Source: Hydra vulgaris
Lineage: Eukaryota; Cnidaria; Hydrozoa; Anthoathecata; Hydridae
Length of the DNA: 64,000 nt
NCBI RefSeq assembly: GCF_038396675.1
Contig: NC_088934.1
Coordinates: 3,104,001 to 3,168,000, forward strand
Reading direction: 5' to 3'
Shown here: positions 17,979-64,000 of the stretch, one piece after another
Numbering within the stretch: the stretch's first letter is position 1
How the letters are laid out: the number at the start of each line of letters is the position of its first letter
Position numbers and translations under genes: made by a program
Notes under the pieces: generated by a model
What the model saw: the letters and a program-made list of their open reading frames with translations, nothing else
Told to the model about the DNA's origin: nothing
Databases searched by the model: none

Positions 17979-28622
<10,644 letters not shown>

Positions 28623-30429: not shown

Positions 30430-31385
30430 AAAAAAGAAAAAGAAAAAAAAAGAAATTACAAAGAAACTTTATGTATGTAGTTATTAACGCTTATGAATGT
30501 AGTTAATACCGTTCGTGTGTGTATTTATTCGTTTTATAAAACAGTTAGTAGGTATCATTCATACCACAAATTTATCATAAGTCATATTTGAGGAGCCCGT
30601 TTGTAAGACGCGCCAAGTCCGAATAAACTGATTTTGAGAAAACAACGAAAAACTAAACTACCTTAGTTGCGCATCAAAAGAAAAAAATAAAATTTTTGTC
30701 CATTTCTAGGAGTAAACATTTATTAACAGGTTTAAAATTTAAATAGATATTAGATTTCAATATAAAGAATAGAGAAATGGAACTAACTCTTAATTTTTAT
30801 TTTTGTGACTTTTAGATGGGCTCCTCATTTGATCTCCCCTCCTCAACGTGAGGGCACTGATGTAGTGAAGTTTTAAACTATACAATCTTAAACTAAATTT
30901 AATTTTATTGAGAGATTTAAAATTTCATTAAAAAATATTGTGAATTACAAAATCTATGACCATGAAAAATTTACAATCCTCTCATTTAGGGGAGGGTTTC
31001 GGAACATTAATGAAACACGTATATCAATAATGTATGCTTATCTTGCTATAACAAACACCATATGGTAACTACATATAAAACAAATAATTCTGCTTCACCA
31101 CTGACATTTATGCAGTACATTTACGCCTTACACTAATAGCTATTTATTATTACGACTTTTAATGACCGTCACCATTCTTGATTATTTTTTATTATTCTTT
31201 TTATATTTACTTTGTTTTAGCATGATTAAATTTTAGTATCTTACTTGATAGCTACTCCTTATTCTCCACTAAACATCTGTCCTTTTATACTTTTATCTCA
31301 ATTTGCTACACCCTTTTGAACATATTATGCTTTTTTAGACATCCAATGCTCAGTGCAGTTCTACTAGAATACATTGCATTCAACA
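30430..31385. other. Intergenic stretch
   Basis: No recognisable gene or repeat. Confidence 0.4.
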
Positions 31386-31386
31386 T

Positions 31387-31389
<3 letters not shown>

Positions 31390-31458
<69 letters not shown>
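31390..31458. repeat. (TA)n microsatellite
   Basis: About 34 TA units. Confidence 0.96.
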
Positions 31459-31721: not shown

Positions 31722-31934
31722 AAGACTTAAAAGCAAAATAATGCGTACAAGGTGAAGGGGGATCTTATGCTAAAAGATTATTTTCTCATCCAATATTTTG
31801 ATAAAAAAAGTCCTATAGTTCAAAACTGCCTGTAGAAAACTATAAATACATGAAGCTATTTTATAAAATTTTTATAGGAAAAAAAAATAAAAAATAGTTA
31901 ACCAAGCATAAAAAAGTTGGCAGACCAACCAGCT

Positions 31935-32927
31935 TTACCATGTAGCTTCCTTCAAAATGTGTTCTTGAACATAGTCACGAACAGCTTCATCAAGCGTAAA
32001 CTTAAGAGGAGCCTTTCCAGTAATATTATGATATTTTTCCATGTTGGCACAGGTAAAGTTCTGGTACTGCTTGGCTAGATCTGCTGGCATCTCAATATAC
32101 TCGATGTTCACTGGGAGACCCATAGATTTAAAAATTTCTGTAGCTAGCTGATTCCAGGTAGTTGGCTTCCCAGTTCCGATATTATATATACCACAATGTT
32201 GATTGTCTAGGAAAGAACAGGTCATCTCAGCAACGTCTTTAACATAAATGAAATCTCGGCATTGTCCACCATCTGAAAAACGCCCAGGCTCAGTTGATTT
32301 GAAAAGGCGAATGACCCCTTCTTTCTGCACTTGTGGAACCATTTTGCAAATCATGGAGGCCATTCTTCCTTTATGCAACTCATTAGGCCCAAAAACGTTA
32401 AAATACTTTAGGCCAACAATACGGTTTATCACTCCATGCTCAAGTGCCCAAAGGTCAAATAGTTGCTTAGAAAACCCATATGCATTCAGCGGTTTGAGTT
32501 TGTGTAACATGTCATGATCATCATTAAAGCCTAAAGCACCATCACCATAGGTAGCTGCTGAGGAGGCATAGATAAAGCGCTGTCCATATTGCAGGGCATA
32601 TTCTGCTAATCTAATTGTATAGCGCGTGTTATTATCAAGAAGATAGTCGACACGGGTTTCTAAAGTATCTGAACAAGCACCCAGATGGATAAAGGCAGCA
32701 ACATTGTGCTCTTTTCCTCCTAGCCAATCGAACAGCTGACTGATACCAATAAAGTACTTGAAACGTTTACCAAGCAGGTTTTTCCATTTGTCAGAAGTGC
32801 CAATATCATCAACAAGAACAAGGTTGGTAAAACCACAATCATTGAGACGGCGCACAATGCAAGAGCCGATAAAACCAGCAGCACCTGTGATGACAATTAA
32901 ATCTGAAGTTTGGATTTTTCTTTGCAT
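31935..32927 (-). CDS. hldD: ADP-L-glycero-D-manno-heptose 6-epimerase (bacterial-type)
   Basis: An intact, intronless 330-codon gene. HldD inverts C6 of ADP-D-glycero-D-manno-heptose to the L,D form, the last step in making the core heptose donor of bacterial lipopolysaccharide. It is a short-chain dehydrogenase-type enzyme. The sequence shows the cofactor loop TGAAGFIG (residues 14-21) and HLGACSDT. YASSAATYG supplies the active-site Ser (122/123). YGFSK has catalytic Tyr150 and Lys154. KYFNVFGP is followed by HKGRMAS, with Lys186 at the place of the second catalytic base. CRDFIYVKDVA and GIYNIGTGKPTTWNQLA follow. Length is close to bacterial HldD (about 310). Base composition is clearly richer in G+C than the surroundings: three 60-base stretches I counted gave 40, 52 and 40 percent. 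No other lipopolysaccharide gene is adjacent. Lateral transfer is the simplest reading; assembly contamination is the main alternative. Confidence 0.92.
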   Translation of the reverse strand: MQRKIQTSDLIVITGAAGFIGSCIVRRLNDCGFTNLVLVDDIGTSDKWKNLLGKRFKYFIGISQLFDWLGGKEHNVAAFIHLGACSDTLETRVDYLLDNNTRYTIRLAEYALQYGQRFIYASSAATYGDGALGFNDDHDMLHKLKPLNAYGFSKQLFDLWALEHGVINRIVGLKYFNVFGPNELHKGRMASMICKMVPQVQKEGVIRLFKSTEPGRFSDGGQCRDFIYVKDVAEMTCSFLDNQHCGIYNIGTGKPTTWNQLATEIFKSMGLPVNIEYIEMPADLAKQYQNFTCANMEKYHNITGKAPLKFTLDEAVRDYVQEHILKEATW

Positions 32928-32990
32928 GGAGCCCCCTTATCATACCAATTTTACAGTTTTCTTACTATCAGACCAAAATATGTATATAAT
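32928..32990 (-). promoter_or_regulatory. Upstream region of hldD: Shine-Dalgarno-like run and TATA-like box
   Basis: Directly before the ATG on the minus strand is GATAAGGGGGCTCC, a purine run four bases from the start codon that resembles a bacterial ribosome binding site. About 50 bases further up lies TTATATACATA, which could serve as a TATA-like element. The purine run may be a relic or chance; nothing else decides it. Confidence 0.35.
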
Positions 32991-33009
32991 TTACTATTGT
33001 TGTATTTTT

Positions 33010-33840
33010 TAAATAAAACTGCAAAAAATAAAAAAAGTCAAGAAATTAATTATAGTAGTCCAAACTACTATAAATAATATATATGCATAATACAAACTAA
33101 AAATGTACATTTTTAAATGTATACTTTTTTAAATTGGATGAGCAAAGTTAACTAGAATAAATGTTTGAAAATTATGTTTTAAAAAACACGTTTAAAAAGT
33201 TCTTCATCTTGTTAATTAAAAATAAGCTATAGATATTTTATTTGAATTAATTTTTCATAACCATTTAGAAATATATATAGAGTGAACCTACAAATATCAA
33301 CTGATTTTCAAGGAATACAATGCCTTACAATGTAAAACAAGTAAGGGTTTTGGCTCAAGCAGGAAGTCTATTACTTCATAAAAAAGTTATTTTTATGTTT
33401 TCAAACATTTTCTGGTTGTTTTTTTTTTTAACTTTTTTTTTCCAAAAAAATGGTAAGCATAATAAAGAGTCTACCTAGAGTCAATATTGCAATAATTATT
33501 GATAGACAGCTGTTTTGTTTATGTTTACAATATTCATAGTATATTATAAACATAAATATAAACAGTGCAACATTATATACCCTTACATATATGTGATGTT
33601 ATACATATGAATTGGTGAGAAGAAGAACAGTACAAGTCCATTTTTTGTTATTTGCACTTCTTTTCATAATTTCATATAACTTATGTCGATCTCTCTATGT
33701 ACTAAAAAAATAATACTAGTTCATTTTCCTTTCATTATTTTTTTGCCATAAAGTAGATAGAGTAAATAGTTTATAAACTGTTTAAAACTTAAATATTATC
33801 TCGAAATGAAAATATTGGACGAGAACTGTTCTTCTTTTCA
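33010..33840. other. Intergenic stretch
   Basis: AT-rich with no recognisable gene. It precedes the Penelope-like terminal cluster. Confidence 0.4.
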
Positions 33841-33844
33841 CCGA

Positions 33845-34033
<189 letters not shown>

Positions 34034-34061
34034 TAGAAAATCACTTAACAAAATTTTTTTC

Positions 34062-34103
34062 CATTTGACACTGTGTTTCATCAACAAAGATTCATCAGAA
34101 ATA
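34062..34103 (-). ncRNA. Hammerhead ribozyme, minus-strand copy
   Basis: Reading the minus strand: stem I 5' side TATTT (34103-34099), CTGATGA (34098-34092), stem II ATC/GAT with a six-base loop, and GAAA. Stem III is three pairs with a CAG loop, the cleavage site is GTC, and the stem I 3' side is AAATG (34066-34062). One stem I pair is a U-G wobble; the plus copy has C-G there. All conserved core bases are present. Confidence 0.82.
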
Positions 34104-34127
34104 AATGATCAAATTAATATGATCATT

Positions 34128-34169
34128 CATTTCTGATGAATCTTTGTTGATGAAACACAGTGTCAAATG
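34128..34169 (+). ncRNA. Hammerhead ribozyme, plus-strand copy
   Basis: Stem I CATTT (34128-34132) pairs perfectly with AAATG (34165-34169). CUGAUGA is at 34133-34139. Stem II is ATC (34140-34142) with GAT (34149-34151) and loop TTTGTT. GAAA is at 34152-34155. Stem III is ACA/TGT with a CAG triloop at 34155-34163. The cleavage position is after C34164 (GUC). This is a type I hammerhead with minimal stem III, the form known from Penelope-like elements. Stem I can extend by a U-G and a U-A pair. Such short-stem motifs are thought to need dimers for efficient cleavage. Confidence 0.87.
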
Positions 34170-34200
34170 GAAAAAAATTTTGTTAAGTGATTTTCTACTA

Positions 34201-34778
<578 letters not shown>

Positions 34779-49479: not shown

Positions 49480-50730
49480 ATCAATCCGTTGTCATTAAAC
49501 TAACGGGTATCCCGCTATAGTTGAAAATTTTAACGGATTGAAGTCCGTGGATATTATTCTTTTTCAAATAAGGGATTTATTACGTTTGAGGGCATCTATA
49601 AAGTACGTACGCAGTAAAACCAATGGTTTCAGACTCCACATTCGCCCTTGAAGGCAGCTGTATGCTTTTAACGACCCGTCCTTTCACTGCTTACGTAAGC
49701 ATTATCTCTTATAAAAAAAGTTTCATAAAATAAAAAACAAACAAAATGAAAACTTTTTGTTAAAATTATATTTTTTTATTAGTAAATTAAAATTTTATTA
49801 GTATTTTCATTAGTAAAGATTCATGAAAAAGATAGTCAAACCACGTACTTACTCGCCGTCTTGAACCAATGCCGTACCCAGCGATAGTTTAAGCTGTAAC
49901 GGACCGTTACCTCCCAAATAAAGCGGTAATGCTCCATATCAATGTACCGGTTCATCGAAATGACGATTTAACCTATACGTTCAGCAATTTACGTTTAATA
50001 AAATCTGTGATCATTTGGAATATTTAAACTTTTTTGATGTTGTTAATGCGGTGTTTATTTACATTAAGTTTATTATTATTAAAAAAATTTTATTTGGGCG
50101 CCCATACCGGTCAAACGGTATAGAATTACGTCTGGATACGGCACTGCTTGAACACCCTTTCTCCCTTTTACGAATCTGTAAGCTTTTGGATGGTCCCTGT
50201 CCCCCATAACTGCGTAATAAAAACTTTACTTTAAGAAGACACCTTAATGTAACAAACAATCAGTTGAAAAAAAGCAGTTACATGTTGTTTTTTTCAAGCA
50301 TAACGGTTCGGATTTTTTTTCCTAATATTTTATAAGCATACATGTGAAAATAAAAGTGTTTAAAAAAAACCATGTATTAAGTTAGTGCATCAAGTTATGC
50401 GCAGTTGATATTCATTAAAATAATGGAGTAATAAGGCTGTTGAAGAAAATAATCCGTTTAAATCACTCCATTAAAATTAAGCAGGAATTAAGCCAGATAA
50501 TTCTAATTTCATAACAAAACAATCCTTTATTTTGTAAACTTATGGATTTTTATTATTAATATGACATAAATAAACATTGGTGTATAAATGTAATATTAGT
50601 TGTAAGTCTAATTAAGTCATAACTAAATGTAAGCTTTCAAAAACTGTGCATTAAAAACTATTAAAATATTTATAATACTTTAATTTAATATAATACAAAC
50701 TTTTAATTACAATCAAAATATTTTTTATAT
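49480..50730. other. Non-coding stretch with repeat fragments
   Basis: Holds a GAGGGCATCTATAAAGTACG block at 49587 (relative of 31463) and AACGGAT/ATCCGTT inverted motifs at 49477-49550. The small frames at 50015-50259 show no family signature. Confidence 0.45.
49587..49690. repeat. Interspersed element, copy 2 (left end)
   Basis: Shares GGGCATCYATAAAGTACGTA, CGCAGT and a later 'catttaacaacc/cttttaacgacc' block with 31463-31540. Confidence 0.6.
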
Positions 50731-50735
50731 ATATT

Positions 50736-50736
<1 letters not shown>

Positions 50737-50782
<46 letters not shown>

Positions 50783-50853
50783 CATAAATATATATATACA
50801 TATATATATATATATATTCCATAAATATACATATATATATATATATATATTCC

Positions 50854-50907
<54 letters not shown>

Positions 50908-50966
50908 CATATATATATATATATATATATATTCCATAAATATATATATATATATATATATATTCC

Positions 50967-51038
<72 letters not shown>

Positions 51039-51097
51039 CATATATATATATATATATATATATATTCCATAAATATATATATATATATATTCCATAA

Positions 51098-51151
<54 letters not shown>

Positions 51152-51152
51152 C

Positions 51153-51201
<49 letters not shown>

Positions 51202-51207
51202 TATTCC

Positions 51208-51249
<42 letters not shown>

Positions 51250-51250
51250 C

Positions 51251-51292
<42 letters not shown>

Positions 51293-51297
51293 CATAA

Positions 51298-51341
<44 letters not shown>

Positions 51342-51346
51342 CATAA

Positions 51347-51386
<40 letters not shown>

Positions 51387-51387
51387 C

Positions 51388-51457
<70 letters not shown>

Positions 51458-51466
51458 CATAAATCC
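50737..51466. repeat. Composite (TA)n array with TTCCATAAA punctuation
   Basis: About 18 TA runs of varying length separated by TTCCATAAA or TTCCATATA, sometimes followed by TACATA. The last TTCCATAAA runs straight into the truncated SINE at 51470. Open frames of several hundred codons ([10 protein letters not shown]) are meaningless. Confidence 0.95.
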
Positions 51467-51469
51467 CCA

Positions 51470-51767
<298 letters not shown>

Positions 51768-62639: not shown

Positions 62640-64000
62640 GAAAAATTGATTACTTGACTATAACTTGTGGTGTTCCCAAAGGCTCAATTCTGGGTCCACT
62701 TTTATTTCTTATTTATATAAACGATTTCCATAAGTTTTCAAACATTTTAAATTCAGTTTTATTTTATTCTAATGGAGATGTCAACCTTTTATTTAAAATA
62801 GTAAACAAGGAATTTTTAAATCTAGCGGATTGGTTTAAGACAAACAAATTGTCCTTAAATTTAAATAAAACTAAGTTTACTTTTTTTCTGAGAATTCGCA
62901 ATAAAGAAAATATTCCATTAAAACTTCCTGAAATAATTAGAGAGTCATCGTTAAAGTTTTTAGGAGTGATACTTGACGAAAACCTAACACGGAGAGAACA
63001 CATAAGAACGTTTGAAAATAAAATTTCAAAAAATATTGGCATTCCATACAAAGCTAAGCAATTATTAAACCAATACTGTTTAAAAATCTTATATTTCTCC
63101 CTCATACATTGTTATATAAACTATGCAAATATTGCATGGTGCAGCTCTAATGTAAGTAAAGTTAAAAAATTGCTTAGTAAGCAAGAGTACGCTGTCAGAA
63201 TTATTTTAGGTGCAGGTCGTTTCACACTTTCTAAAGAACTATTTAAAAATCATATACTTAATGTTTTTCAGTTAAACATTTTATCAAATTCTTATATTTA
63301 TGTACAAACTTCATAATAAAGTAAATCCTATAATATTTAATACACTTTTCAATAAAATGAATCACGAGTACCCTACAAGATTTTCCAATTATCAACCTAA
63401 TCCAATGAGCAACCTAAAATGCACAATTTGGTTACTAAATTTTCTATTGCCATTAGAGGTCCTAAATTATTTATTAAATAACCAGCTGAAAAATTGTTCT
63501 TCACTTTCTCTATTCAAATAAAAACTTCTTAACGATGTAAATGAATTAAATTCTTTTTAAGATTCTTTTTTTTCATTCATTTTATTTTATTTTACTTTTT
63601 TAATTTTTGATTTTCTTTTTCTTTTTTAACAACTATCTTATTAACTGGTCTTTAATTTAAATTTTCCTTAATAATTTATCCTAAATTATTTTTAGTTTTT
63701 AGATGTAGTTATTATTATTATTTTTTATCTTTTTTTACGATTTTCTTTTGATTGTAGATTAGTAACTGATCTTAACATACTTGTAAAAATTTGTATTTAT
63801 TTTTTATACAGTACAAAGTAATTTTATGTTTACATTTTAATGATTGTACACGCTTGCTGATGAAAGCACGTCGGAGCGTAGTGAAAAGACAAATATTGTC
63901 TACTTTTAGCCCCGGTGATGTAGATTTTATTTATGTAAAACGGCATTGTGTTCTTTTTTTTAATGACTAAATAAATAAATAATTATTTTATTTAAACATT
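62640..64000 (+). mobile_element. LINE 3' half with tail
   Basis: 5'-truncated at about 62640, just before motif B (GVPKGSILGPLLFLIYINDF). It continues with the catalytic region as YSNGDVNLLF, the thumb (SSLKFLGVILDENLTRREHI), the YINYANIAWCSS block, and a second piece at 63300-63521 in another frame. The 3' UTR is T-rich, includes a GC-richer block GATGAAAGCACGTCGGAGCG, and ends in a (TAAA)n repeat near 63965. It is related to the 1-1235 family. Confidence 0.88.
62654..63521 (+). pseudogene. LINE reverse transcriptase, inactivated
   Basis: The frame 62654-63316 starts at motif B and has no stops through the thumb. The catalytic box, normally YADD or FADD, reads YSNGD: both its Ala-Asp and first Asp are replaced, so the polymerase cannot work. 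A frameshift near 63300 moves the remaining C-terminus (MYKLHNKVNPIIFNTLFNKM) to another frame. Confidence 0.86.

Follow-up and report, generated by a model that had tools for sequence, protein, structure and literature searches.

A chlamydial-type hldD gene in a Hydra vulgaris chromosome and its possible place in a patchwork ADP-heptose pathway

The hldD locus

The window, i.e., the whole stretch of 64,000 nucleotides that was analysed, corresponds to C15:3104001-3168000 of the Hydra vulgaris genome, which comprises 911.5 Mb in 15 contigs, C15 being a contig of 57.7 Mb. According to the list of open reading frames (ORFs) of the window, an intact ORF of 330 codons, from ATG to TAA, occupies 31935..32927 on the minus strand; the plus-strand reading of the same interval has 16 stops. 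The features of the locus are the following.

31000..31390, no strand: host repeat, then TA array; many diverged copies elsewhere in the genome
31465..31896, no strand: downstream flank, not CpG-depleted (10 CpG, o/e 1.00)
31897..31941, minus strand: kinase remnant, i.e., the opening ~15 codons of the bacterial heptose-kinase gene that follows hldD, recognised by the overlap and the breakpoint
31935..32927, minus strand: hldD, predicted ADP-L-glycero-D-manno-heptose 6-epimerase of chlamydial origin, by profile, structure relatives and tree
32928..33608, no strand: hldD upstream (5') flank, AT-rich, with 1 CpG against 8.8 expected (P 0.0015)
33019..33038, minus strand: sequence like an acceptor for splicing or trans-splicing (TTTTTTTATTTTTTGCAG), its AG being at -93/-92 relative to the ATG
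33608..33830, no strand: host repeat, then long TA array; many copies elsewhere in the genome

The encoded protein matches the NCBIfam model TIGR02197 (heptose_epim) with 342.6 bits, for a cut-off of 274.6, and an E-value of 2e-102, which excludes a chance match to the family. The match spans residues 11-323 of the protein and positions 1-313 of the 316 in the profile. With a second HldD model, NF008360, the protein scores below the cut-off (214 vs 452). Its best solved relatives are the HldD enzymes 4ej0, 1eq2 and 2x6t, and it carries the motifs TGAAGFIG (residues 14-21) and YxxxK (Y150, S153, K154). Residues T14, G15, G18, I20, G21, Y150, S153 and K154 are invariant in 40/40 rows of the hldD alignment, and these include the residues of the Rossmann GxxGxxG plus YxxxK pattern that is looked for in HldD (G15, G18, G21, Y150 and K154). 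An intron is absent, and the G+C content is 0.41, whereas the 680 bp upstream have 0.23 and the downstream side 0.31. The original prediction, which described an intact, intronless 330-codon HldD gene with its active-site motifs and a G+C content well above its flanks, is thus borne out, with the minus strand now added.

In the whole genome the HldD-grade match is single-copy; apart from it, only a sugar epimerase-like ORF with 25% identity, on contig C3, was matched. This second ORF (L002:1441-2442, plus strand) is intact and intronless and encodes a nucleotide-sugar epimerase-like protein of 333 aa, which among NCBIfam models scores highest with TviC (316 bits, cut-off 760). Its fourfold G+C is 0.138 and its CpG o/e 0.64, and it is possibly another old bacterial transfer.

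The host repeats on both sides of hldD are found on many contigs, and hldD itself lies on a chromosome-scale contig. Copies of 31000..31390 are nearly all 71-83% identical, with one short copy at 96% (best 40 of 521 candidates), and those of 33608..33830 reach 82-90% in the longer matches listed. Animal transposons and TA arrays had been described all around the gene; this stands for the host repeats at 31000-31390 and 33608-33830, but not for the 680 bp at the start of the gene (32928..33608), of which no other genomic copy was found among the best 40 of 196 candidates. Genome searches with the flanks found neither an empty site nor a target duplication for the insertion, since they yielded no second copy of the sequence directly beside the gene.

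The upstream flank is a possible 5' leader or intron of a predicted methylated transcription unit. Sites as good as its acceptor-like site occur at 0.28 per kb on the minus strand. The start codon context of hldD is weak and an out-of-frame ATG stands 16 bases before it, which counts against the explanation favoured below. On the other side of the gene, the variant poly(A)-signal-like TATAAA occurs at 31876 and 31865; three such variants together are found at 6.8 per kb and are thus common by chance.

Chlamydial origin

The closest match to Hydra HldD in the genome collection is that of the Simkania MAG CROMO_BS_87_3_0, with 77-78% identity. Matches at E 1e-3 were found in 204/232 Chlamydiota genomes (paralogues included), the best at 78, 73, 67 and 65%. 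The HldD tree comprised the Hydra sequence, 30 chlamydial rows, i.e., the best-scoring 30 of the 204 genomes with any match, and 6 other bacteria as the outgroup. Locus L036, which holds a sugar epimerase paralogue from the Simkania genome, was left out, and L035 duplicates part of L003.

In this tree Hydra and Simkania are joined with support values of 99/91, and a second chlamydia comes next with 100/99. A tree in which the 30 chlamydial rows form a group that excludes Hydra is worse by 30 log-likelihood units and is rejected (p-AU 0.0056). The phylogeny places Hydra HldD inside Chlamydiota, and near-identity to a symbiont genome, which had been named in the original prediction as a sign of contamination, was not found, the best match being 78%. 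Judged from these sequences, the source of Hydra hldD is chlamydial, and Simkaniaceae-like. The Hydra gene shares with the Simkaniaceae HldD of CROMO_BS_87_3_0 a 78% identical protein, the same motifs and the overlap with a kinase gene described below, but differs from it in lying in an animal-type chromosome, in having lost the operon and in being CpG-depleted. A viral carrier of hldD was considered and rejected, an HldD relative being absent from the viral contig collection.

Simkaniaceae, a family of intracellular bacteria, are reported to be frequent in cnidarians (PMC11070183). Chlamydiae of another family inhabit the endoderm of Hydra oligactis, inside cells, and wild H. oligactis harbours several chlamydial families; among them that report names Parachlamydiaceae, Rhabdochlamydiaceae and Endochlamydiaceae, and not Simkaniaceae (PMC13229535).

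Operon remnant and breakpoint

The hldD stop overlaps the start of a heptose-kinase gene in 30/30 chlamydial loci (ATG in 29, GTG in Simkania), and the kinase frame stays open. Hydra retains this overlap, as ATGGTAA, together with ~15 kinase codons. Among the first 15 bases past the Hydra stop, 11 match the Simkania gene, which is equalled at 5e-5 of window positions; codons 8-15 of the remnant are identical to the Simkania gene at 15/24 positions, and 0.0002 of window positions do as well. Past ~15 kinase codons the similarity is at chance level, and at the other end bacterial similarity begins within a few bases of the hldD ATG. These limits indicate that the integrated DNA piece measured ~1 kb and had its break within the kinase gene. 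The claim that the gene has no bacterial neighbour thus fails, given the ~15 codons of chlamydial kinase at 31897-31941. Retroposition of hldD from mRNA was rejected because the sense strand 3' of the gene is T-rich, not A-rich.

The Simkania kinase gene scores 351.3 bits with TIGR02198 (vs 345), above the kinase-domain cut-off, and gives no match to the adenylyltransferase domain: the C-terminal ~130 residues are not recognised as such a domain. A heptose kinase follows hldD at L003:5999-7366 and, as the matching gene, in nine other chlamydial loci, and the pattern G-x-[FY]-D...HxxH was found in none of the chlamydial loci searched.

CpG content

In comparison with 30 chlamydial hldD genes, which present a CpG o/e of 0.76-1.27 (mean 0.97, sd 0.14), Hydra hldD has a CpG o/e of 0.51. 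Both TG and CA are more abundant in it than in any of the 30, and together with CpG they are the three strongest outliers among the 16 dinucleotides. Low CpG with high TG and CA is the product of the deamination of methylated CpG. The depletion runs on through the 680 bp upstream and ends at the downstream junction. For Hydra vulgaris, the published average CpG o/e is 0.63 in gene bodies and 1.03 in repeats (PMC8857923, Table 1). By its sequence, hldD resembles a methylated, presumably transcribed Hydra gene. Given that 20.6% of 993-bp window tiles have a CpG o/e of 0.51 or less, the value, with a bootstrap interval of 0.33-0.71, is unusual for hldD genes and not for the region.

Two results do not follow this pattern. 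The fate of shared CpGs does not set Hydra apart, either for those common to single row pairs or for CpGs found in at least 3 rows, of which Hydra keeps 9/37 and eight chlamydial rows keep 7-11 of 24-32. The fourfold G+C of hldD is 0.331 vs 0.333 in Simkania, 0.188 in the HldE-like and 0.212 in the GmhA-like ORF presented below, which counts against the favoured explanation. Since fourfold G+C falls by ~0.1 in simulations, the donor would have needed about 0.42; eight chlamydial rows range from 0.31 to 0.54.

With the chromosomal context, the truncated bacterial neighbour and the animal-type CpG loss, the claim of a bacterial-type HldD inside a cnidarian chromosome is supported, and contamination or a very recent insertion of hldD appears unlikely from the sequence.

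Selection on hldD

An intact frame had been taken to imply selection. This does not hold for the frame alone, as a young insertion would also be intact; what does argue for selection is a loss of CpG at silent sites without a loss at replacement sites. Hydra hldD has 10 silently losable CpGs, vs a chlamydial mean of 33.4 (minimum 14), and 11 replacement-only CpGs, vs 10.1 (range 3-15). The difference between silent and replacement loss yields a Fisher p of 0.004 against the pooled 30 rows, in a test that treats related chlamydial rows as independent, and of 0.036 against the two nearest.

Of the 92 sites at which all 30 chlamydial rows agree, Hydra differs at one (A268S), vs 0-5 in bacterial leave-one-out counts, such sites being biased toward the query's kin because the 30 rows are the best-scoring of 204 genomes. 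Residues unseen in the 30 rows number 7/326 in hldD (0-28 in bacterial rows) vs 4/15 in the kinase remnant (Fisher 0.0007), whose extent was set after seeing it and in which two of the bacterial rows have 4 and 5 such residues as well.

In silent-only simulations, a CpG o/e of 0.51 was reached near 0.10 changes/site if CpG is 20-fold hypermutable and slightly above 0.20 if it is 10-fold so, and was not reached by 0.20 with 5-fold; these factors are assumed and may differ from Hydra's. Of 600 runs at 0.10 changes/site, 0.5% left a neutral frame with its start and free of stops, and at 0.15 none did. When stops and frameshifts are both considered, the probability of frame survival is 0.59 at 0.5% neutral change, 0.32 at 1% and <1% at 5%, under an assumed indel rate and base spectrum. 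Taken from the sequence of one host genome, these values lend indirect support to the retention of hldD by purifying selection after the transfer.

The strongest competitor is a fairly recent, functionless insertion of chlamydial DNA that is intact because little time has passed, which we consider rather unlikely. It would account for the G+C and fourfold G+C of hldD, both still bacterial-like, and for the intact frame, which is likely at 0.5-1% neutral change with frameshifts included; 1/92 changed invariant sites also fits a small divergence, at most one change having a probability of 0.40 at 1%. However, the silent-only CpG loss exceeds what a neutral intact frame tolerates, unless the donor was CpG-poor, and the kinase remnant shows more unseen residues than hldD. 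Taken together, the remnant of the operon and a CpG loss confined to silent positions allow a resident, selected transfer to be separated from contamination without reads.

Rate-based analyses were less informative. Codon models yielded an omega of ~0.005, with the Hydra branch no different (2dlnL 0.0001), and one larger model ended at a lower likelihood than the smaller one and had not converged. The silent sites are saturated, Hydra and its nearest relative being different at 65% of 105 fourfold sites, branch lengths in the codon models are implausible, and the omega conveys nothing beyond strong overall constraint. Relative-rate counts against 7 outgroups presented no consistent acceleration, the Hydra-unique/Simkania-unique changes being 28/16, 19/23, 23/20, 21/15, 21/22, 23/18 and 20/15.

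Other ADP-heptose and LPS genes in the genome

Animals in general are not known to have GmhA or HldE. A search of the genome with the Simkania kinase yielded an HldE-like ORF on contig C13 (L078:1066-2538, minus strand), and a GmhA profile search yielded a GmhA-like ORF on contig C5 (L111:1483-2055, minus strand). Both are intact and intronless, with 490 and 190 aa, respectively.

The HldE-like ORF has both domains, a PfkB kinase and a cytidylyltransferase-like domain, and is about one third identical to bacterial HldE, although it stays below the NCBIfam equivalog cut-offs (338.5 vs 521, 242 vs 345 and 166 vs 181.5 bits). Its adenylylation may be impaired, since HVNH stands in place of HxGH, the form found in 31/31 motif matches of 19 viral-contig loci, many of which are near-identical and some of whose matches come from a neighbouring gene. 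Given that the Simkania kinase has no second domain, this ORF is unlikely to stem from the chlamydial operon, and its composition is host-like, as its fourfold G+C indicates.

The GmhA-like ORF is likewise below the equivalog cut-offs (180.9 vs 209.45 and 187 vs 276 bits). Its residues 28-188 match a phosphoheptose isomerase structure, and the C-terminal QESH...IH segment is alike. Among the plasmid records listed, both ORFs have distant bacterial matches only, with identities of 33-34% for the HldE-like ORF and, to phosphoheptose isomerases, of 48-52% over ~77% of its length for the GmhA-like one. Neither ORF is CpG-depleted (0.91 and 1.27, respectively), which counts against the favoured explanation.

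Searches of the whole genome for GmhB at E 1e-3 gave no match with TIGR00213 or NF006506, which matched 5/14 and 12/14 control genomes. In the same way, no genomic match was found for the GT9 heptosyltransferase (PF01075; 5/14 control genomes), the Kdo transferase (PF04413; 3/14) or LpxC (PF03331; 4/14). These results apply to six-frame searches, which are blind to heavily split genes, on a genome with some stretches masked and with controls that include no eukaryote.

In comparison with the Gram-negative ADP-heptose pathway (GmhA, HldE, GmhB, HldD), three of the four enzymes have homologues in the Hydra genome. The Hydra homologues differ, however, in being unlinked, on three contigs and of mixed origin, and in that GmhB, GT9, Kdo transferase and LpxC were not found. 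It had been suggested that the gene could remodel ADP-heptose; the suggestion gains support from the GmhA-like and HldE-like ORFs, yet is held back by the HVNH motif and by the failure to find GmhB.

The same gaps favour another reading, in which hldD is expressed and selected for some other reaction, as an epimerase or dehydratase acting on another nucleotide sugar, and the GmhA- and HldE-like proteins serve other routes: with HVNH for HxGH, and GmhB and GT9 not found, the classical pathway may not close. We regard this as improbable, because the HldD motifs and 91/92 invariant residues are kept and because the co-occurrence of three homologues that fit the pathway in a single animal genome would otherwise be hard to explain.

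Proposed explanation

The explanation we consider probable, with appreciable doubt, is that a Simkaniaceae-like hldD was integrated and selected, and is part of a patchwork ADP-heptose pathway that does not serve lipopolysaccharide (LPS). A fragment of the hldD-kinase operon of a Simkaniaceae-like chlamydia would have entered the genome of a Hydra germ or stem cell, the integration cutting the kinase gene after ~15 codons. Purifying selection would have retained hldD since then, as a predicted methylated and transcribed host gene. The GmhA- and HldE-like genes, whose base composition now resembles that of the host, would have been gained before hldD.

Since the genome carries both of these ORFs, the substrate of HldD is plausibly made inside the animal. 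The predicted roles are those of a sedoheptulose-7-phosphate isomerase for the GmhA-like protein, of a heptose kinase and adenylyltransferase for the HldE-like protein, and of the epimerisation for HldD; an unrelated host HAD phosphatase may stand in at the GmhB step. As the LPS acceptor genes were not detected, any product made probably has a use other than LPS, either as a free sugar nucleotide or as the donor for some glycan. The analysis itself shows the chlamydial origin, the operon remnant, the CpG signature, the presence of the GmhA- and HldE-like ORFs and the negative searches for LPS genes. The species, the transcription and methylation of hldD, its catalysis, the pathway flux and the end use are all matters that we infer from sequence, and the explanation is weakest with regard to expression, to the HVNH motif and to GmhB, which was not found.

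A more tentative proposal, which the homologues found would permit and which we consider possible but doubtful, is that two or more independent bacterial transfers have given Hydra a working pathway that converts sedoheptulose 7-phosphate to ADP-L-glycero-D-manno-heptose. If true, the animal would itself produce the L,D-heptose donor, either to heptosylate a surface glycan or to tune the recognition of its bacteria by converting the D,D form into another isomer.

Contamination or mis-assembly, i.e., bacterial sequence wrongly joined into the chromosome, would be in keeping with the chlamydiae reported to live inside Hydra oligactis cells (PMC13229535), but is very hard to believe given that only ~1 kb is bacterial and is cut inside a bacterial gene, with AT-rich DNA on both sides and host repeats further out, that the CpG signature of hldD is unlike all 30 chlamydial genes compared, and that the genome holds one HldD-grade copy, the other match being a 25% relative.

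Relation to known transfers

The Hydra genome paper of 2010 reportedly listed about 71 candidate bacterial genes, among which sugar enzymes were remarked upon. The acquisition of bacterial genes by Hydra, such as those for the PPOD lectins and flp, is known, and some of these genes have sugar-related functions (PMC3531485, PMC3273482). The hldD gene resembles these transfers in being a bacterial-type gene in Hydra; it differs from them in that the phylum of the donor can be named, part of an operon is still present and more than one enzyme of the same bacterial pathway has a homologue in the genome. Insects assemble patchwork pathways from several bacterial donors, e.g., the peptidoglycan genes of mealybugs. 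Both cases would gather steps of a bacterial pathway from different donors in an animal genome; in Hydra vulgaris, however, the pathway and its function are only putative, and no symbiont there is known to need the ADP-heptose product.

No earlier report of a Hydra hldD was found among the matches listed in searches of openly licensed papers. As far as these matches reach, three points appear to be new: the chlamydial source with an operon remnant, as read from the sequence; the use of a CpG loss restricted to silent positions to argue for residence and selection; and the presence in a single animal genome of homologues of three enzymes of the ADP-heptose pathway.

ADP-heptose is regarded as a microbial metabolite. 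An animal with three pathway homologues, one of them clearly chlamydial and apparently selected, would blur this line. Given that Hydra can be kept germ-free, the question of animal ADP-heptose is directly testable. ADP-heptose is reported to activate the mammalian kinase ALPK1 (PMC12457700).

Other features of the window

Three further features were observed in the window. Reverse transcriptase fragments of retroelements lie on the plus strand at 25776-26447 and 62654-63316 (PF00078, 38.4 and 26.1 bits, respectively, for a cut-off of 29.6). A long TA-rich array at 50651-51496 is broken by a recurring short unit, which gives rise to three overlapping spurious minus-strand ORFs. Beside a TA array, a near-perfect palindrome occupies 34024-34207, with arms of ~90 bases and 97.6% identity over its self-alignment.
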